The notes under the pieces were generated by a model that did no database searches, had not been told where the DNA came from, and saw only the letters and a list, made by a program, of their open reading frames with translations. 64,000 nucleotides of DNA from Suillus spraguei (taxonomy: Eukaryota; Basidiomycota; Agaricomycetes; Boletales; Suillaceae): the NCBI GenBank assembly GCA_016800925.1, contig JABCPU010000207.1, positions 1-64,000 of the forward strand, in the 5' to 3' direction. Positions 13,264 to 25,479 of the stretch are shown piece after piece. A program made the translations under genes and the position numbers. Positions within the stretch are counted from its first letter, which is position 1. Each line of letters starts with the position of its first letter.

Positions 13264-15766
13264 TCAAGCTGCATCTATTCTGACCTCTTCGATCCTATCA
13301 GCCAACAGTTCTGCGGTTTCTCGAGGCATACCGCATCGCTTCGTGAGTTGACCGATAAGGTTCATCTTTCTGATATGCGAATTCTTTACAAGAAGCTTCT
13401 TCAGCGCACCCACCAACGACACGAACACATTGTTCAAGTTCCCCCTCATCCATACTTCGTCGTGCTCGCTGGCAATATTCTGCTTGACAAGCTTGCGGAT
13501 TGCGACACGCGATTTTTCATAGAGTTGTTGGTGTATGCCTTCCAATCCATTGGCGGCGGTTATGCACGCATGGTCAGCAACGTGAATCTGGTACCGAGCA
13601 AAGATGTTATGTTCTCGCTCCCACCAGTCCTCCATCCTCTGCTCTCTTTCGAGGTTCGTAATTGCGAGAACAATCGGAACCTTCTTCTCACAGAGGAATT
13701 CATAAAAGAATCTGTAATTGCTCTGGAGCGCAGCGGTGAATCGGCCGGCACGAATGCAGAACAGAAGCAGGTCCACGCCGCCTTCGTCATCCAACGCCTT
13801 GATGAACCTATAGGCATTTGCGACTGCTGCGAGGTACTCTTTCATTTCAAGTCCAGATTCCTCGATACCAATGGTATCGAACACCTTATAAGACTCTCCG
13901 TCGAAGTCGACGACATAGTCTTGCCAGTGCAGTGTGCAGCGTCGCATGCCAAGAGATGTGATAGCTACTTCCTTTCCTGCCATGAGGTTGACGACTGAGC
14001 TTTTGCCTGCACCTGCCTCGCCAAAAAGTACAATATTTTTGGTCTTCCTAATTTATCGATGTTGAGCAAATTACGGCACAAAGAGCATTTGGCGACCAAG
14101 TACGTACCTCACAGGAGGGGTGTAGTGACTCTGGAAATCCCCGTCCCATTCTGTGGGTACCGCTGCTCGATAAGTTTCCAGACGGTGTGGTATGACTGTT
14201 CGTGGCGCTGCCTAATCTCATCTGTATCATCTTCATTAATGGCCACCGCGGTAATACACGCGTGGCCAGCGAAGGTCATCCCGAGGTCTGAAATGGATTT
14301 CTCGTTATTCTTCCACCACTCTTCCATGTCTGGTTGTCGGGTTTCCAGACCTGTAGCGACAAGGACGATGGGAACCTTTCCCTTGACTTTGGAAGGTAAT
14401 AATTTATAGTTGCGTTGAAGCGTCGAGATGTCTTTTGTGCCCTGCACACAGTACATGACGAGATGAATGCCCCGGTTCTTCTTAAGAGTCCTGAGGAGGG
14501 TCCTCAAAGCTATCTGACCTTGCATAGTTGAAACCGTCCCATGAGGACCTTCATCAAGACCTGCAGCCTGGTTCAGTGACGCCCACGAAGAGTGGCAAAC
14601 TATACTGACCGGGTGTATCGAACAGTTGTACCTTCACGGTCTTGCCCTGAGTCACAACATCATGTTCGTGCAAGGTGATTTCGGTTGTACATCCCGTGGC
14701 ATCGGGAGACGTCTGCGCTGTTTGCCTGCCAGTGATTAAGTTCACCAAGGAACTTTTGCCCGAGCCTGTTTCTCCAAAAATCACAATATTGCATGTGTCT
14801 CTGCGACGTGAAGCTTCCTTTATTCGATGGAAGTTGTGGCCAGCTGCGCCCCGATCTGAGACGTGTGACTAAATTCTAGTTAAAGTCATGCTGAGGAAGA
14901 GCCAGCAACCACATACGGATACGGTGGATGTTACCCTCCCAAGAGGTGGCGGCGTTGTGTCGTGGGTCACCAGTGTCACTGCGTCGAGGAACATCAAGGA
15001 CATTTGGATACCAAACAACCATCTAATCCAGGAATTTTTACCAGTGCCTTGTTCTTCGACACCAGGGGCATTGTGTGCGCACGTGCGATGTTCCACTCGA
15101 TCTGAATCATGGCTAGCTGCACTCTGAACTGAGGTATTATGTAACTGACTTCAAGTTATTTTCAGCCTGGAATAGTCAGACATTACATACGGATCTCTCA
15201 GGAGACAGCAAAATTGCATCAAGTTGTGCTGGCGCCGTTTGCGTCTTAGTGTTCACATTGACCCAGGAACCTCGAGTAGCGCCCGTCTCAACAACAATGT
15301 CAGGCTGGACAATATCGCATGTGTCTGAACGATGTGGGGCATCCTCGACCGGATCTGAACTATGGCCAGCTATCCTGTGACCTGAGGGATGGAACTAACT
15401 TCAAGTTACTTTCATGCTGAGGAAGAGACAGACGCCACATACAGATACGGTAGGCGATGCTCTCGAGAGAGACGATGGTATTGCGTCGGGGGGCATCAGC
15501 GCTGTTTGTGTCACAGTGGCCGAATCGACTGAGGAAGTTTTATTATTGGCTATTTCTTCGACAAAATCACCATTCTTTGGACGGTGACTGTAGCCAGCTG
15601 TATTGTGTTCTGAGTTATGGGACTAGTGTCAAGTTAATTTCTTGCTGAGGAAAAGTCCGACATCACATACAGATACAGTCGACGATACTCTCCTAAGAGA
15701 CGGCGACATCGCAAAAATAAAAAATAACGAAAAGGATGTCTTGTTGTCGGTGTTTTTGAGTGCCAT
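13264..15766 (-). CDS. Double G-domain P-loop GTPase, copy A with three extra P-loop exons
   Basis: Two G domains lie in tandem, like AIG1/GIMAP-type small GTPases; the role is unknown. Exons on the minus strand are 15671-15766 (starts MALKNTDN), 15443-15622, 15191-15394, 14917-15144, 14610-14868, 14108-14560 and 13264-14047. Domain 1 has Walker A GETGSGKSS and switch motif FDTPG, then IHLVMYCVQGTKD and VLVATGLETR in place of NKxD. Domain 2 has GEAGAGKSS, FDTIG and LAITNLEREQR. Exons 2-4 (60, 68 and 76 residues) are diverged copies of the exon that carries domain 1's P-loop; all are open and bounded by phase-0 introns. The last codons of exon 6 are one C short in a run (near 14119), judged against copy B. 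The full product would be about 735 residues. Confidence 0.8.
14917..15622 (-). repeat. Tandem array of duplicated P-loop exon plus intron (three units)
   Basis: Units of about 230-270 bases each hold an intron (donor GTATGT, then a CTGAGGAA/TTCCTCAGC block and an acceptor after AACTTGAAGT) and an exon. The exons at 15443-15622, 15191-15394 and 14917-15144 align with the functional exon at 14610-14868: HRSDTCDIV in unit 2 matches RRRDTCNIV, and the P-loop is altered to ETGATRGSW in unit 2 and QGTGKNSW in unit 3. Unit 1 keeps only a trace (NNKTSS). All three can be translated through. Confidence 0.75.
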
Positions 15767-17335
15767 CAATCTTGCCTTCAGTCTTCAATTCATTATAAAC
15801 GTGGTGGGTCCAGCCAGCGCTGGAAATAGTTCCTGCCGCGTGGATTTAGCATGTTCCATGCATGCGAAGAAGGCATTGCGATAAGTGGCGTAGTTAGTAA
15901 GAGTTTTTGAATCAATTCTAAATGCAACCATTATGAATTACTAGGGTTTGAGGACCATCAAGGGACCATCCTAGTGTGACCCTCAGAAGTCGCGAATAAA
16001 GTCAGATCAATCGAAGAAAAGTAGTCGTCATTCTCTTATATTAGGATAAATCTCGCCGCATTGGCAGCTATAAATGATCAGATAGGTTGCCGGATCAAGC
16101 TCGAGCCTCGAGATGCTCGAGTAGTACGTTTGGCAGTCTGACTTGCTGTTGAGCGTCGTCATGGCGAGTCAGCGCGTCCCGCCTTAGAATCATTCTCTTG
16201 GAGGATTGGTTCCTATGGTACACAGGCGCTATATTTGAAAGCTGATCATTGAATGCATGGACTTAGCGCACGTACCATTTATATACAAGCATGCCAGCAA
16301 CTTGTACTCAAAAATGTTATGGGAAGTCTCGAAAGTGGAAGTGAATTTTAATGTGTATCCGGGTCCTATGCATGCACTTGCAAATGATTCGATGATCAAT
16401 GGCATCGGATGCATCGTAGTGTTTGAGCTTGTGTTTGGCTCTCTCCAATTATTATGTAATTCACTGTATAACCATAAGTTGAATGACAAATTACTACTAT
16501 GAATGCACGCTGTCGACACTTTTCTCCTGCCATTACGTAGAATCCTCACCCCCTCTCATTCAGGCTTCAGCAGCATCGGTCTTATAAGTTGGCCAAGACT
16601 CGGACATTTACAGTATGCTCTTCACATGCTGTCATGCCCCAGTACCTCCTTGCAATACCGTTCTTGCAGGGTTCATCGTTCCGGCAACTTCCCGAACTCG
16701 TAACAACCGATCTACACAAAGATCTGCCTACATGATCTCTTAAATCTCCTGGACAAAGACCTTCCTACACTGAAATGTACTCCAGGTCGCATATTGATAT
16801 GCGAGCCGAGTGCTCGCCGCTCGAGTACTATTAAAGTATATGAATCTCCCCAACAAATTAGCTAAACCAGGTTCCAGCTGAATTAGTCACTAGTATGACA
16901 GTAACGGTTGAGCCGAAGTTGAACCAAAGCTTCCAGCACAACTTTCTACTGTAGTGAACTATGAATGGCAAGGTATAGCTGATTGTCTGCATGTAAGAGG
17001 CACACCAATAGTTATATCTTGCCATTCACACATGTGTTGAGCATGCTATATCCAGGCGTCATGATTGATCTTCAAATCTGGCGCCTCAGACGCCTGGACT
17101 TGCCACGTTCAAACGACTTCCTTTGACTGGTCTACCTACTAGTACGGGAGACTGAAGGTCTGAGGGTTGAACCAGGGTCATCCGACCTTAATGCATTTAG
17201 AAATCAAGTACGTCACGCTAGCAATGCTTTTGACACATGCTTGGAACATGCTGAATCCAGGCGTCAGGATCAATCTTTAAATCTGTCCCTGGAACACGTC
17301 ACATTCTAACGAATCAGGGACTGAATGCGAGACTG
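15767..17335. other. Spacer between the head-to-head GTPase copies
   Basis: The outer edges are inverted copies of each other: the upstream flank of copy B (about 17250-17335, with GGAACATGCTGAATCCAGGC) is matched in reverse upstream of copy A (about 15770-15870, GGAACATGCTAAATCCACGC). A second, direct echo of the same text lies at 17037-17090 (GAGCATGCTATATCCAGGC). The centre (about 15900-17000) has only short open frames. Both promoters must be in this spacer. Confidence 0.5.
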
Positions 17336-19083
17336 ATGGCACTCAAAAACACCGACAACGCAAGTCGAGATGCCCTTTCATTGTCTTCAAGCTTTGTAAT
17401 GTCGCTGTCTCTTAGGAGAATACCTTCAACCGCATCCGTATGTGATGTTTGGTTCTTTCTCAGCTTGAAGTTAACTTGAAATCAGTTCCACACCTCGAAT
17501 CAGAGTGTAGCTGGCCCCAACTGCCGTGGAGTCAGTGATGCTTCACGTTGCACGAACACCTGCAATGTTGTCATTGTTGGGGACACAGGCGCCGGTAAAA
17601 GTTCCTTGGTCAACTTGATCACTGGGACGCAAACAGCGCCGACGTCCCCCGACGCCAAGGGATGTACAACTGACACCATCGTGTACGAGCATGATATTGT
17701 GACCCAGGACAAGATCTTAAAGGTACAACTGTTCGACACGGCCGGTCAGTGCAGTTCATCATCTTTCATGAGCGTCGCTGAACTAAACTGCAGGTCTTGA
17801 CGAGGGCTCTCAGGGGACAGTCCCCAACGCGCAAGCTCGGAAAGCTTTGAACAGTCTCTTTCAAACCCTTATGAAGAAAAAGGCTATCCATATCCTCGTG
17901 TACTGTGTGCAGGGCACGAAGGACGTCAGAACGTTGCAACGCAACTACAAGTTATTGCATCCCAAAGTCAAGGGAAAGGTTCCTATTGTTCTTGTTGTTA
18001 CAGGTCTGGAAACACGAAACCCAGACATGGAAGAGTGGTGGAGGAATAACGAGAAATCCATTTCAGACCTCGGGATGACCTTTGCGGGTCATGCGTGTAT
18101 TACCGCGGTGACTATTAATGAAGGTGATACAAGCGAGCTCAAGCAGCGCCGCCAACAGTCATACCAAGCCGTCTGCAATCTTATCGAGCATTTTCGCTCG
18201 CAGAATGGGACGGGTGTCCGCAGGGTTACTGCCATTCATCCGGTAAGGTACGTATTTCGTCGTCGGATGCGTACATTGCGTTATATTTTGCTAAACGTCA
18301 ATAATTAGAAAGGAGCATAAGAATATCGTACTCTTTGGGGCAAGTGGAGTAGGCAAAAGCTCAGTTGTGAACCTCATGGCGGGAATGAAGGTAGCGGCCA
18401 CATCTGCTAGCATGAATCGCTGTACAATGCGCTGGCAAGAATACACCATCGGATTTGGTGGCGAGTCATACAAGGTTTTCGATACCGTTGGACTCGAGGA
18501 ACCGCAACTTGGAATCAAAGAGTATCTCGACTCCGTTGAGAACGCCTACGCGCTGGTCAAGGAATTGGATAGGCAAGGCGGTATTGATCTGCTCCTGTTC
18601 TGCATTCGCGCCGGCAGAATGACTGCTACTCTTCAGAGCAATTACCGGCTCTTTCATGAATTCCTCTGCGAGAAGAAAGTTCCCATTGTCCTTGCGATTA
18701 CAAACCTCGAAAGAGAGCAGAGGATGGAGGACTGGTGGGATCAGGAACATAAAAACCTCCAAAGACATGAGATCCATGTCGCTGGTCACGCATGCATCAC
18801 TGCCGCTGACGGACTGCCAGCTGGCCCACAGGGAGACCGCTATGAGGAATCACGCCTCAAAATCCGCGAGCTCGTTAAGCGGTTTACTGCTCACGGGCAG
18901 CAGCAAGCATGGTCAGGAGGGGACACCCTGTTTGTCTCACTCATGCGTAAGCTGAAGAAGCTACTTGTAGGAGGTTCGCGTATGAAAAGTAAGGATCTTG
19001 TCCTTCATCTCACGAAGCGTTGTGGGATATCTAATGAAGTCGCAAAACAATTGGCTGACATGATCAAGCAAGATCCATCGTGA
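17336..19083 (+). CDS. Double G-domain P-loop GTPase, copy B (intact)
   Basis: Exons are 17336-17437, 17486-17744, 17794-18247 and 18309-19083. Phases fit exactly and give 529 residues without any break. Exon 1 (MALKNTDNAS...) equals exon 1 of copy A. Domain 1 has Walker A GDTGAGKSS, FDTAG, VYCVQGTKDVRTLQRNYKLL and VLVVTGLETR; domain 2 has GASGVGKSS, FDTVGLEE, LLFCIRAGRM, LAITNLEREQR and a basic C-terminal helix region. Exon 2 is 259 bases, the same length as the P-loop exon of copy A. A canonical NKxD motif for guanine choice is not seen; TGLE and TNLE stand in that place, so nucleotide choice is open. The family is common but uncharacterised in mushrooms. It faces away from copy A. Confidence 0.85.
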
Positions 19084-19330: not shown

Positions 19331-19830
19331 ATGACGCTTCCAAATGAACTCTGGCTTCCAATTTTCGAATATCTGTCTCCGCGGTCGCTTCGTAATGTTG
19401 TCTTGATGTCGAAGAGATTTCATGCAGTCGCCATCCGTATTCTTTACAACCCGACATCATTTGTAAAAATCAGATCAACGCAGGTCACGCGTGCATCGCC
19501 GCCGCAGATAATCTGGACGGCAGATACTAAACTCTGTATCAAGAATCGCGCGTCACGATCCGCGAAGTTGTCAAGATGACCGCCAGCGGCAAGCATGACC
19601 AGGAGGGAAAAACCTATTTGTTTCACTCATGCGTAAGCTGAAGGAGCTACTTGTGGGGGGTTTGCATGTGAGACGCAATGATCTTGTCCCATATATCACG
19701 AAGCTGCGGGTTGTCTTCAGATGTCGCAAAACAGTTGGCCGATATGACGAAGCAGCATGCTTATTTTGTCCTTGTCGATACGTTACACATGACTACTGTA
19801 TGCAGATCACTTACTACGTGATCAATATGA
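19331..19830 (+). pseudogene. Hybrid pseudogene: F-box start fused to a GTPase tail
   Basis: Bases 19331 to about 19475 match the start of the neighbouring F-box genes (MTLPNELWLPIFEYL, then RSLRNVV) with an internal deletion after FHAVAIRILY. From about 19482 the text switches to the end of the GTPase gene (GHACITAA as HARASPP in a shifted frame, then the GTPase C-terminal block up to VAKQLADM). The 3' flank (CGATACGTTACACATG) also matches that after copy B. Stops and shifts break it throughout. It is the scar of a recombination between the two families. Confidence 0.7.
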
Positions 19831-19992
19831 TAACACTGCGATACAGTGACTAGGGTACGGGTTAACGGAATAAAAAGAACCACCACGGTGGTGTCCATCA
19901 CGTGATGCTACTGAAAGGAGGGCTTGATTATTGCTTGATTATCACATCATAACTTGGATCGTACTACTAGTCTTCGTACGTGCACGGTCAGG

Positions 19993-22107
19993 ATGTCATC
20001 GATGTCAATGTCGACAGCTGAGTCCTCGTCGAAAGTGTTTTCTTCTAGTATGACACTTCCTAATGAACTCTGGCTTCCAATCTTCGAATATCTGCCTCCA
20101 CGGTCACTTCGTAACGTTGTCTTAACGTCGAAGAAATTTCATGCAGTCGCCATTCGTCTTCTTTACAAGCATCTGATTCTGACGTCGCCGACATCATTTG
20201 TAACAGTGTGCTCTGCGCTATCTTCCATCCAGCCTTCACCGCATGCTCTCCTTCTTAGTATTTCCCCGTTCGTACGCACCGTAGAGCAACTACAAGAAGC
20301 TGTCGCTGTTGTTTCCTTCGAAGGGGTGAAGCCAATTACTGTCAACTCTAATAACAACCGCCAATCAACAAGGTCTCTTTTTTCTGAAATCAGGGATGGT
20401 TACCAACCAAGACTGGTTGCGGATATGACCCTCTACAACACTCTTCTATCACAAGTGATTTCCTTTACATCTCTCAGACAGCTCGTCTTTCGCGGTATGA
20501 TTCTCCCAGGAAATTTCCACTCCATCGTGCACGACTTTCCGCACTTGCGTGACTTGGCGGTTGTGCACTGCACCGCTCCTTTCGTCCGTTCCCCTCCAGA
20601 TATTGACCACACTTCCCTGAAAATTGAAAATCTCACCCTCCTTGACATTCGCGCTTCTTCTCGATCCGACGACGACGACATGCATCTTCCCCGTACCCGT
20701 CTACGGTTGCTTGCAAAAGCCTCTACCCTCCGCACTCTCACATATGATCATACCATCTGGGTACACCGCGCTTTCACATCGTCCTCCCCATCTCCTCCAC
20801 TCACTTCTCTTGACGTCAAGTTCCCTATCCAGAAAGACCGTCCCAGAGTTCCTCATGGCTTCATTCCGTTCCTCGAGACTCTTCCCTCACTCCGCACTCT
20901 CATCCTGCGAAACCACGTTCCCGCACTCTTATTGTCGCCAAGCGCTCTTCCAGCCCTCTGTGCCATTTCTGCCCCCTTCTCTGCCATTACTTCTCTCTGT
21001 TCCGGCCGTAGCATTGCGAAACTCGACATCCGCGATGAAGCTGTGCTTGCGCCACTTTATAAGGCATTTGCAGAAGTACACTCTGACTTGTCGATGGTTC
21101 AAGAGCTTTCGTTGTTGTAGGGGACTGGGACGACGAGCTCATCCTGGCCATTGTCGCACACTTTCCTAATTTAACCAAGTTACAAATCAGGTATGCAAGG
21201 GGAGGGCCAAGCGAGGTGCGTTACATTTACCTTAGTTTCTGTTTCTTTTGCCGACGTTGACTCTCGTTTTCGTTTCCAGGATACCATTATCGGCATGGGT
21301 TCACGTACACTTTACGCCCTTCCACACCTTGTATCCGTACACATCTTCTGCATCCCTCTGCCCCCACCCCCTCAAAATTTCCTCGAGACGAACAACCTTG
21401 ATGACGACACCGCATATGGCGCCCCTGGCATCGACGATACTTATTTCCAGAGCATGCATGATATCGATCCGGACACAGACACCAGCCCGGAGCGGGATAA
21501 CAGTGACAATGATTATGGCGTACCCTACCAGCGCCATACTTGCAACTCTCACAACACACTTCCTGCCATCTATCAAGACATGGACTTGGACTTGGATGTG
21601 TGCATGGACGTGGATACGTACATCGTGTACTGCTGCCACGGGATTCCTGCAGGGTCGCCGTGCCACGAGTGTACGATTGCGGAGCAGCAGAAGTGTTTCG
21701 ATAATTTGGAGTATGATCATGACTTTCACACTGGATTCGAAGAGCCCAAGTTTCGGAGACGGAGCCGTTTGATGACTACACTCGTGAACTTGTCGTACGT
21801 TCTGCTATGTTGCATCTAGATTGCAGTTTTGGGATGTTCTGATTATGTCCTTTACGCGTAGGTCGCTTGGAACCGTGCCTGTCCTAGACTTCGCACTGTT
21901 CAGCTGCACCCGGGGTGGGTGTGGCGGCGTGCGGACCCTGCTGACTCTTGGGTTGCGAGGCCGTGCGACTCAGGCATTTTTGGCGATGTTTTCGAGTCGC
22001 CACCTTGCGATGTGAGGTTACTGGCAGATATCATAAAAAATGCTAAATTAAAAACACGTGACATTGACTCCATAATTTGGCCTCATACAATCATTGGAGA
22101 TCAGTGA
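19993..22107 (+). CDS. F-box protein, paralogue 1
   Basis: F-box proteins link targets to SCF ubiquitin ligases through Skp1. Exons are 19993-21215, 21280-21794 and 21862-22107. The F-box is near residue 20 (LPNELWLPIFEYLPPRSLRNVVLTSKKFHAVAIRLLYKH, written here only in outline). A leucine-rich region follows (SLRQLVFRGM, HLRDLAVVHC, TLRTLTYDHT, SLRTLILRNH), then an acidic insert and a last exon WNRACPRLRTVQLHPGWVWRR. Two single-base gaps are seen against paralogue 2: near 21113 (before GDWDDE) and near 21750 (before the TEPFDDYTREL block). The last exon reads about 35 residues past the stop of paralogue 2. The start is the first ATG upstream of the F-box in frame. Confidence 0.72.
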
Positions 22108-23607
22108 CTAGGGGACTGTTAGTTCATGTACGGAGCAGGACTGGTCATCGAGACGAAAAGGGTATAGGGAATGAAGGAAAGAACATGTGGAAACAGGTCG
22201 AACTTGGCGTGTAACTCGTCAGCAAATACATAAATATTGTGGGTTATACATTTACATTTTCTGTGTAGGTTAATTGTAGATGAAGTTTTATGTATGATTC
22301 ACTCTTCTGTACGTGTACAATATTAGTTATTTCATTTTACTGAATTCTAGCTCCTTACGTTAGCATTCGTGCCTAGCGAAGGAAATATTTGGAAGGTTGG
22401 CAGCCAAGGGAGTGAACGGGATCTGCCACGGCTTTTGCAAGCTCTAGGCTTGATCAGTTCGATGGTATGTGTTAACGAACGTCGATGCAGCTGTGAAAGA
22501 ATTTTCCACTGGGGTGGCTAAACAGGCGCGGCACGAGATGACAAAATGATAATATCATGATTAACATCGACGTTACAACTGGCCTGGCCTCACCTAGCAC
22601 CCAACCGCCCAGTTAAGCGTCAAATTGAGCATCAAGTGACCAGTAAGCTGACAAAAATGACACATTGCGCATAGAAGCCAGGCGAAGCACGATTGACACG
22701 CCATGACTGATATAACGCCAGTGGCACCCTTAGGATCGAAACGATGATACGATTGCTCGTTCTCCTGTTGCAAGTCAGAAAAATGTATAATACAAGTGCC
22801 TACCTGGTGGTACTGCCGAGATATGAATGAAAACGCGTCAGAAATTTTTACCACTACAACATCTGAAGTGTTGTCACATCGATGTATCATGCCGGGAACA
22901 GCCGCCACGTCCCTGACTCAGTGATGATACTGTGATCCTAAACAGCTCTTTTGTGGCCTCAACCGTCCTGCTAGGCCAGGCTGAGCGAACGATCGACTGA
23001 TAGTCCAAGTCAAATCGTCTCATTTTCTTCGGAAGACTTGCCAAGCAAATTCGGCAGCCCTAAATCACGACGAGCAGACGAGCAAGGACGTTTGCATAGT
23101 GGGCCTTGCTTGAATCAACAAACTTGGTGATGAAAGTCTTGTAGACCGCCCGCCTTGTGAAATACTAGTATAGTCCGTGACTCCTCTTGAGTCTTGGACG
23201 CGTCACCATAGCAAGGGTTGCACTGACACATCCTCTGGAAGGAACATGAAATCAACGAAAGCATGAGGACATTGCACATGGTACGTGACAGAGACGACTG
23301 CAGGCAATATTGTATTTGCATGTATTTTGACCAGTACCTCTCCGGCATTTTTGGCTTGCCTTTATCCTTTGACTTATCTCACCTTTGATAGGCCTTAGGT
23401 ATAAGTACTTCCCGTTTCTAATGCACATTAACAAGTCTAATCGATATACAACAAAATCCTGGTCTTGGATCTATTTGTATGCCCATCAAACTTGGAAACG
23501 CGTATCGGCATTAACAGTCTTTCAAGTCCGGAAGTCGGTCAGTCACGTGATAGGTAGTAGAACAACGACCTTTTAACTTGCTGAGTACTCGAGAGTCGAG
23601 ATCGTGC
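22108..23607. other. Intergenic region between F-box paralogues
   Basis: A minus-strand frame at 22594-22908 (104 codons, Cys-rich and hydrophobic at its end) can be read with a possible 40-base intron, but has no family likeness. The rest shows only short frames. The segment is probably flank of the duplicated F-box genes. Confidence 0.35.
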
Positions 23608-25479
23608 ATGAATATGAATATGTTGTCTACAGCTGCGTACGCGTCTCTTTCCACAGTCTTCTATTCAACAACACTTCCAAATGAACTCTGGCTTTCAATT
23701 TTCGAATATCTACCTTCACAGTCGCTACGTAACATTGTCTTGACCTCGAAGAGCTTTCATGCAATCGCCATTCGTCTTCTTTACAGGCATTTGATCCTGA
23801 CATCCCCGACATCATTTGTAACGGCTTCCTCAGCGTTGTCTTTGATCCAGCCCTTACCGCGCGCTCTTCTTCTTGGTATATCCCCCCTCGTAGAACGCAC
23901 CGTGGAGCAGCTAAGAGAAGCTGTCGCTATTGTTTCCTTCTCGGAACCTAACGACTGGACGCCTATTCCTCTCAACCGGCAAACAAACAGATATCGTTTC
24001 TTTCAAATCAAGGATGCCTACCAACCACGCCTCCTTGCGGACGCTACCGTCTACGACAATCTCCTTACTCAAATTACATCATTTACCTCTCTCAGACAGC
24101 TCGTCTTCCGCGGTATGCTTCTACCACGAGATATACACTCCATTTTGCGCGACCTTCCGCACTTGCGTGATTTAGCGGTTGTGCACTGTACTGTTCACTT
24201 CGCTAATATCCATATAGATGTTGATCACACTTCCCTGAAACTTCAATCCCTCACCCTCCTTGATATTCGCGCTGTATACTCATCTCATGACGAGGATACT
24301 AATCCTCGGAATCCACGTACCCGTCTTCGAATGCTTGCAAAAGTCCCAACCATCCGTAGCCTTACATATGATCATACTGTCTGGTTACATCGCATTTTCA
24401 CATCCTCCTCCCCATCTCCCCCACTCACTGCTCTCGATGTCAAGTTCCCCATTCATAAAGACCGCCCAAGAGCTCCGCTGGGCTTCATCTCGTTCCTCGA
24501 GACTCTTCCCTCACTCCGCACTCTCATCTTGCGAAACCACGTTCCCGCCCTTTCACTGTCACCAAACGCTCTTCCGGCCCTCTGTGCCATTTCTGCTCCT
24601 TTATCTGCTATTTCTTCTATTTGTTCCGGACGCAGCATCATCAAGCTCGATATTCGTGATGAGGCCGTGCTCACGTCACTCTACCAAGCATTTGTAGAGG
24701 TGCACTCTCAGTTATTAAGGGTGCAAGAGCTCTCCCTCTTCATAGGGGACTGGGATGACGAAGTCGTGCTGGCCATCGTCGCGCGTTTTCCCAATTTAAA
24801 AAAGTTACAAGTCAGGTATGCAAGGGGAGCACCAAGCGAGGTACGTTGCATTTTCCCCGTTTTCTGTCTCCCTCCCCGATCCCGACCCTCATTTTCAGGA
24901 TACTATACTTGGTATGGGTTCGCGTACACTATGTGCTCTTCCACACCTCGTATCTGCGCACATCTTCTGCATCCCTCTTCTTCCTCCCCCTCAAAGTATC
25001 CTTGAGGCAAGGACGCGTGATGACGATACTGTATATGGCGCCCCTGGTGTCGGCGATACTTACTTCGAGAGCATGCATGACATCGATACGGTCACAGATA
25101 CGCTAATAGATGGTGTTCGCAGCTTGCAGCACCTGCCTTTCTCTCAAGGCGTCAGTGTAGACTTCATCAGCGAACAGGGTAAGACCTCGAAATCTCATTC
25201 CCAGTCTAAACGCAAGTCTGATCCTGAGTCCGAAGAACCCCGAACGTCGGAGCCGTTTGACGATTACACACGCGAACTTATCGTACGTCTGCTGATTTTG
25301 ATTGTGGTTTCGAGGTGCTGATTATGTGCATCTACGCGTAGATCGCATGGAACCGTACTTGTCCTGGACTTCGCACTGTTCAGCTGCACCCAGGGTGGGT
25401 GTGGCGGCGCGCGGACCGTATTGATTACTGGGCTGCGAGGCCGTGTGAATCGGGCATTTGGGGCGATATCTTTGGGTAG
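23608..25479 (+). CDS. F-box protein, paralogue 2 (intact)
   Basis: Exons 23608-24840, 24899-25282 and 25342-25479 join in phase 0 and give 584 residues with no break. The F-box is LPNELWLSIFEYLPSQSLRN and onward. The leucine-rich part has SLRQLVFRGMLLPRD, HLRDLAVVHC, IRSLTYDHT, FLETLPSLRTLILRNH. A second part has FIGDWDDEVVLAIVARF, then GMGSRTLCALPHLVS, a low-complexity segment and EPFDDYTRELI. The last exon reads IAWNRTCPGLRTVQLHPGW and stops at DIFG. It is clearly a duplicate of paralogue 1; here the middle segment holds a serine/lysine-rich piece (KTSKSHSQSKRKSD) that differs from the Asp/Cys-rich piece in paralogue 1. The target protein is unknown. Confidence 0.85.

Follow-up and report, generated by a model that had tools for sequence, protein, structure and literature searches.

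Tandem copies of an intron-centred P-loop segment and the likely growth of an N-terminal tail in a double GTPase of Suillus spraguei

Suillus spraguei is a bolete that lives with pines. We analysed a window of 64,000 nucleotides of its DNA, which is part of a contig (C378) of 118629 bases in an 86-Mb assembly. On the minus strand of this window, a gene with two G domains (gene A, 15766-13264, seven exons, 732 aa) contains three exons that resemble its first P-loop exon and have lost the P-loop motif. Based on their composition, their open frames and the occurrence of similar units in other Suillus proteins, we consider it likely that a copied, intron-centred segment has become a spliced, translated and drifting N-terminal tail before the double GTPase, a tail that would bind no nucleotide and vary in length.

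Structure of gene A and its unexpanded sister

The features referred to in the text are as follows, with positions given in the window.

15671..15766, minus strand: gene A exon 1, 96 nt, with a second in-frame ATG at codon 20
15623..15670, minus strand: gene A intron 1, 48 nt, phase 0
15443..15622, minus strand: gene A unit 1 exon, 180 nt, NNKTSS in place of the P-loop
15395..15442, minus strand: gene A intron 2, 48 nt, phase 0
15191..15394, minus strand: gene A unit 2 exon, 204 nt, GATRGSW
15145..15190, minus strand: gene A intron 3, 46 nt, phase 0, 2 nt less than introns 1, 2 and 4
14917..15144, minus strand: gene A unit 3 exon, 228 nt, GTGKNSW
14869..14916, minus strand: gene A intron 4, 48 nt, phase 0
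14610..14868, minus strand: gene A exon 5, the working first P-loop exon, GETGSGKSS
14113..14560, minus strand: gene A exon 6, remainder of the first G domain
13264..14047, minus strand: gene A exon 7, second G domain
17336..19083, plus strand: gene B, divergent unexpanded sister, 529 aa, two G domains, exons 17336-17437, 17486-17744, 17794-18247 and 18309-19083

The initial annotation had placed, after exon 1 and ahead of the working P-loop exon, three additional exons measuring 180, 204 and 228 nt, and the letters of the window agree: these exons are open, are multiples of three, have phase-0 borders, add 204 residues in frame and carry the altered P-loops that had been claimed (NNKTSS, GATRGSW and GTGKNSW). 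Introns 1 to 4 are all GT...AG and of phase 0, and adjacent exons are homologous with like intron borders and phase, as expected of tandem exon duplication. Unit acceptors lying 13-16 nt further downstream were also considered and rejected, as they break the frame that the originally proposed acceptors preserve. A regular expression for the branch site matched in introns 1 and 4 and in neither 2 nor 3; by eye, TAACTTGA or TAACTAGA stands just ahead of the acceptor in all four.

Gene A has two intact P-loops, GETGSGKSS and GEAGAGKSS, and a strict G1 P-loop is absent from the three units. Since each unit covers no more than the beginning of a G domain and its P-loop is broken, nucleotide binding by the units should be impossible, in support of the loss that had been suggested for them. 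Gene B has a single P-loop exon and four exons in all, and thus stands as the unexpanded sister it had been taken for. By eye, exon 1 of the paralogues starts level with the codon-20 ATG of gene A.

Composition of the copied unit

Measured over intron plus exon, identity is 59.5-65.8% among the units; units 1 and 2 fall in the same range when set against the intact P-loop exons, and unit 3 reaches 54.2-56.1% against them. The two intact P-loop exons of genes A and B are 77.9% identical to each other. In alignments running from the intron to the exon end, the units follow the P-loop exon up to a GAYGCA stretch. Past this stretch, units 1 and 2 are unlike its continuation (11/39 identities, P 0.37, and 8/24, P 0.16), and unit 3 shares 16/40 positions with it (P 0.03). 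The exon tails of units 1 to 3 instead match the end of exon 1, with 25/33, 24/33 and 13/18 identities that were equalled by at most 2 of 20,000 shuffles. Because the tails match exon 1, the copied piece reached from exon 1 across intron 1 into exon 2. The idea that the unit is a copy of the P-loop exon alone is therefore not right. Each new exon is the front of exon 2 joined to the end of exon 1; what was copied, head to tail, is intron 1 with the adjoining ends of both exons.

Exon arrays of the Dscam type are mutually exclusive. The array of gene A is like them in its related tandem exons of equal phase and differs in that the copies end in exon-1 sequence and lack the rest of exon 2; a unit therefore cannot stand in for the P-loop exon, and we rejected mutual exclusion. 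Another likeness is with tandem exon duplication, or intron gain through tandem genomic duplication (for example PMC4974935), where head-to-tail copying likewise adds exons and introns. In contrast to that process, the unit here has an existing intron at its centre, which is recopied together with half of the exon on each side, repeatedly and at two sites of one family.

In the sequence of events that we favour, the segment comprising the end of exon 1, the phase-0 intron 1 and exon 2 to just beyond the P-loop would have undergone head-to-tail copying, probably in an ancestor shared by several Suillus species. As the segment has an intron inside and a coding part that is a multiple of three, every copy would bring splice sites of its own and form a further symmetric 0-0 exon. 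We infer that the three units of gene A are themselves spliced in and translated as an N-terminal tail; the copies would then drift in sequence with the frame kept, and their number would vary between genes and species.

Among the matches listed in searches of the species' own genome, whose counts are lower bounds, those to units lie at the gene A locus and its twin contig, and the rest are ordinary P-loop exons. A region search with the gene A unit stretch returned nothing at E 10 among 1025 candidates, and it also missed relatives that bear units.

Frame retention and selection in the units

The coding frame of the unit exons contains no stops, compared with 2-6 in each of the other two frames of the same strand and 1-3 per frame on the opposite strand. 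The P-loop parts of units 1 to 3 measure 141, 180 and 165 nt, and those of the intact exons of genes A and B 171 nt; all gaps in this part are multiples of three (3, 9, 9 and 30-39 nt), and the sole intron gap is of 2 nt. Tail gaps of 34 and 10 nt were left uncounted, the tail parts being of different origin. In neutral simulations, which start from the present-day units and allow substitutions only, none of the 204 codons became a stop in 19% of runs at 0.1 changes per site, a share that fell to 4.7% at 0.2, 1.8% at 0.3 and 0.8% at 0.4. The fitted unit branches are 0.77-1.28 per codon, or about 0.26-0.43 per site, which matches the simulated 0.3 and 0.4; if the divergence were as low as 0.1 changes per site, the absence of stops would be weak evidence.

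Pairwise dN/dS ranges from 0.40 to 1.74. In a branch model of 61 codon columns, five sequences and a fixed topology, omega is 1.37 on the unit branches and 0.46 in the background; the unit value differs from the background (2dlnL 5.33) and does not differ from 1 (2dlnL 1.29). Our reading of these values is that the frame is probably preserved and the residues are free to change. The initial annotation had supposed that the modules serve another purpose. A function at the level of residues is unsupported, since omega is indistinguishable from 1, and with no measurable purifying selection on the residues any new purpose would be at most a loose one, such as tail length.

The elevated omega could also be read as the mark of decoy or interaction modules under positive selection, forming an arms-race tail. 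The separate omega of the unit branches (2dlnL 5.3) is compatible with this, as is the naming of P-loop GTPases among host-specific Suillus genes in the accessible text of PMC5065116, but omega is not significantly above 1 and gene A is not named in that text, and we hold this explanation to be quite improbable.

Units in other Suillus proteins

The initial annotation treated the array as a feature of one gene, and this has to be widened, since units are present in other Suillus proteins and a second array in another S. spraguei gene. Our set of relatives has 134 members (132 listed proteins plus genes A and B), 94 of which have two strict P-loops. Among these 94, the tail ahead of the first P-loop has a median of 41 aa and exceeds 75 aa in 14, and the spacing between the P-loops has a median of 215 aa and exceeds 240 aa in 17. 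An HMM assigns one module to 9 of the 134 proteins, two to 109, three to 11, four to 3, six to 1 and ten to 1. Some of the counts of three and four are too high because of truncated proteins, and the HMM overlooks decayed units, detecting one of the three in gene A.

Gene A is one of the 14 with long tails; in five others, P0004, P0012, P0014 and P0032 from named Suillus species and P0015, the HMM detects an additional N-terminal module. Unit-like N-terminal stretches were seen by eye only in P0026, P0028, P0039 and P0044, and long tails with no clear units, also by eye, in P0016 and P0018. The two remaining long-tailed proteins, P0084 and P0108 of Suillus lakei, have about three tandem copies of an S/T-rich stretch like exon 1 (STPAGTPSSSSSTLYQTA), seemingly a separate repeat expansion.

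P0015 has four N-terminal units, read from an upstream Met in an intron-free frame of 792 aa on a 2716-bp contig. Its source is labelled 'lgn', which we take to be an assembly of public reads. By eye, the intron-derived peptide of the models P0012, P0028 and P0039 is absent from it, so that P0015 is most likely an assembled message. It bears directly on whether such units are transcribed and for the most part left untranslated or optional, with translation starting inside the last unit (at an in-frame ATG, in a GIQMSLMF stretch) or with the units as skippable 0-0 cassette exons. The annotated proteins P0009, P0012, P0014, P0019 and P0024 start, by eye, within an apparent unit tail, and an omega near 1 would suit untranslated units too; against this, P0015 reads through all four units, exon 1 of gene A has two earlier in-frame ATGs, and the frames are clean. 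We consider it rather unlikely that the units are mostly untranslated or optional. The findings also suggest that automatic gene models may clip such tails.

A tree of 19 exons, rooted for drawing only, joins the working exon of gene A to those of P0012, P0014 and P0015 (93/94) and gathers nine of the ten units in one group, distinct from the intact exons (85/88), from which only the second unit of P0015 (P15_U2), on a long branch, is missing. Unit 3 lies beside units of P0012, P0014 and P0015 (82/69); the larger group around them takes in P15_U1 as well (93/92). The three units of gene A do not form one clade, and only one of the 16 inner branches has strong support. Shuffle z-scores agree in part: unit 3 is closest, among the units compared, to that of P0012 (10.1, against 4.9-6.2 for other exons of gene A); for unit 2 the values are 12.5-15.4 against the unit of P0004 and 11.2-11.4 against the working exon; and unit 1 has no clear counterpart (best 6.2). 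From the tree grouping and these partly agreeing scores, the array probably, though not certainly, predates the split of the unit-bearing Suillus species. A one-to-one pairing of the gene A units with units 2-4 of P0015 held poorly and was dropped (z 9.5 for unit 2, 6.5 for unit 3 and 1.6 for unit 1).

A second array between the G domains

A second S. spraguei gene, at G000:C501:9757-13689 (L017 4758-8690), has eight decayed P-loop modules between its G domains. Its counterpart P0121, also of source 'lgn', is an intron-free frame of 1145 aa on a 3860-bp contig, with eight decayed modules between two working G domains; the HMM matches seven of them best as second P-loop and one as first, and eight are likewise visible in the C501 DNA. 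Outside exon 8, where the assembly is shifted by 1 nt relative to P0121, five of 1062 aligned residues differ, so that P0121 very likely comes from S. spraguei. Its alignment to C501 spans ten introns, for which GT-AG borders alone were sought, and the eight in the array are of phase 2 and 45-54 nt long; some C501 introns show, by eye, a motif similar to those of gene A (TAACTTGA/TAACTAGA). Exon 3 holds the first module. The seven exons lying between it and the last exon measure 240, 432, 93, 237, 224, 234 and 237 nt, six of the seven being multiples of three.

This array appears to be the product of the same process at a different intron, before the second G domain. Its modules look to be part of a message, which is the strongest support in S. 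spraguei for the splicing-in of such modules; as the intron-free frames of both P0015 and P0121 carry modules, these would be spliced in with the frame kept. The proposal that the protein grew by in-phase copying is supported by the open frames, the gaps in multiples of three, the units in other Suillus proteins and the two intron-free frames. Another S. spraguei paralogue (L016 on C486, P0119) has, by eye, one decayed second-P-loop module.

Twin contig and base calls

A contig of the same assembly, C775, is a twin of the locus, 99.4-99.5% identical. Over the unit region (14917-15766) it does not differ from the window at all and hence cannot count as separate evidence on the units. The two contigs are set apart by a single-base indel in exon 5 and another in exon 6 of gene A, so that the reading frame depends on base calls, and by indels and substitutions in gene B. 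Many of the indels fall in short single-base runs and look like base-call errors in one contig or the other. At 14113-14116, ahead of the last intron, gene A is one base short of gene B, and the window letters require another donor, GTGAGG; C775 has one extra G at 14116, in exon 6. Between genes A and B, at 16435 (L015), C775 has 277 bases that are missing from the window.

These indels and the missing base would fit a gene A that is a dying pseudogene or an assembly relic, with units open by luck. In the same direction, neither a transcript nor an annotated protein of gene A was among the matches listed in three protein searches, two of which gave the best 120 of 587 and of 206 matches, with lengths limited. 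Yet both G domains of gene A retain strict P-loops and Pfam matches above cut-off, the units lack stops and have P-loop-part gaps in multiples of three, and similar units occur in relatives; we give a decaying gene little credence.

Protein family and predicted fold

Genes A and B match the Pfam model AIG1 with 63 and 59.3 bits (cut-off 27) and MMR_HSR1 with 81.8 and 89.1 bits (cut-off 21.9), above the AIG1 score. Dynamin_N, RsgA_GTPase, Roc, Ras and ABC_tran also pass their cut-offs, so that the AIG1 match is not exclusive. In Foldseek, the model of the gene B protein P0001 (mean pLDDT 76.8) matches GIMAP2/5/7 and Toc33/34 with probability 1.00 and a target TM of 0.5-0.7; unlike those proteins, genes A and B carry two G domains per chain. 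We know of no GIMAP with a tail of copied P-loop modules. The top Foldseek E-values for this model go to EngA/Der, which also has tandem double G domains, but the TM across the full chain is only 0.2-0.3 and kinship over the whole chain was rejected; P0015 and P0121, the two relatives scanned with the NCBIfam EngA model, score far under the cut-off of that model.

An AlphaFold2 model from a five-sequence alignment gives the units pLDDT values below 32 in ten-residue blocks, from which we infer that they may be disordered. A flexible tail of variable length before a GIMAP/AIG1-like double GTPase would most likely tune assembly or partners and not catalysis.

Possible role in symbiosis

Liao et al. 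2016 (PMC5065116) studied four Suillus species, S. spraguei included, and according to the accessible text more than two thirds of the unique Suillus genes in pine pairings were tied to G-protein signalling, GTPase P-loop genes included. Among the titles and abstract openings of the best 8-15 papers per literature search, none describes such an exon array, and the main text of the S. bovinus genome paper, as available (PMC10971629), has 0 occurrences of P-loop, GTPase, AIG1 and exon.

As a tentative proposal that we would not yet favour, in Suillus the intron-centred P-loop segment may have been duplicated time and again at two separate introns of one GTPase family, printing decayed modules that keep the frame and supply fast-changing, species-specific tails and linkers to host-specific symbiosis proteins. 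Such tails may matter in this family, which is of a type already linked by expression to host-specific pine symbiosis. With zero to eight units, these genes offer a natural series of proteins enlarged as segments with an intron were duplicated repeatedly, at two positions in one family, and in which the copied catalytic motif is discarded and the frame retained, so that selection on length and openness can be weighed against selection on residues.

Gene B and neighbouring loci

The NCBI model of gene B (P0001) opens with MHLEIKRIPSTAS, a different first exon near 17190-17437. A third contig (L020, C235) has a copy of gene B that is 100% identical over the 906 bases searched. Downstream, 19331-19704 is a chimeric relic in which a stretch 90% like the start of an F-box-like gene at 20050 (F-box by eye) adjoins one with 81% likeness to 18893-19018, in the 3' part of gene B. 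The regions 19939-21120 and 23554-25005 form a tandem pair that is F-box-like by eye, 77-85% alike in six blocks of 145-300 nt.
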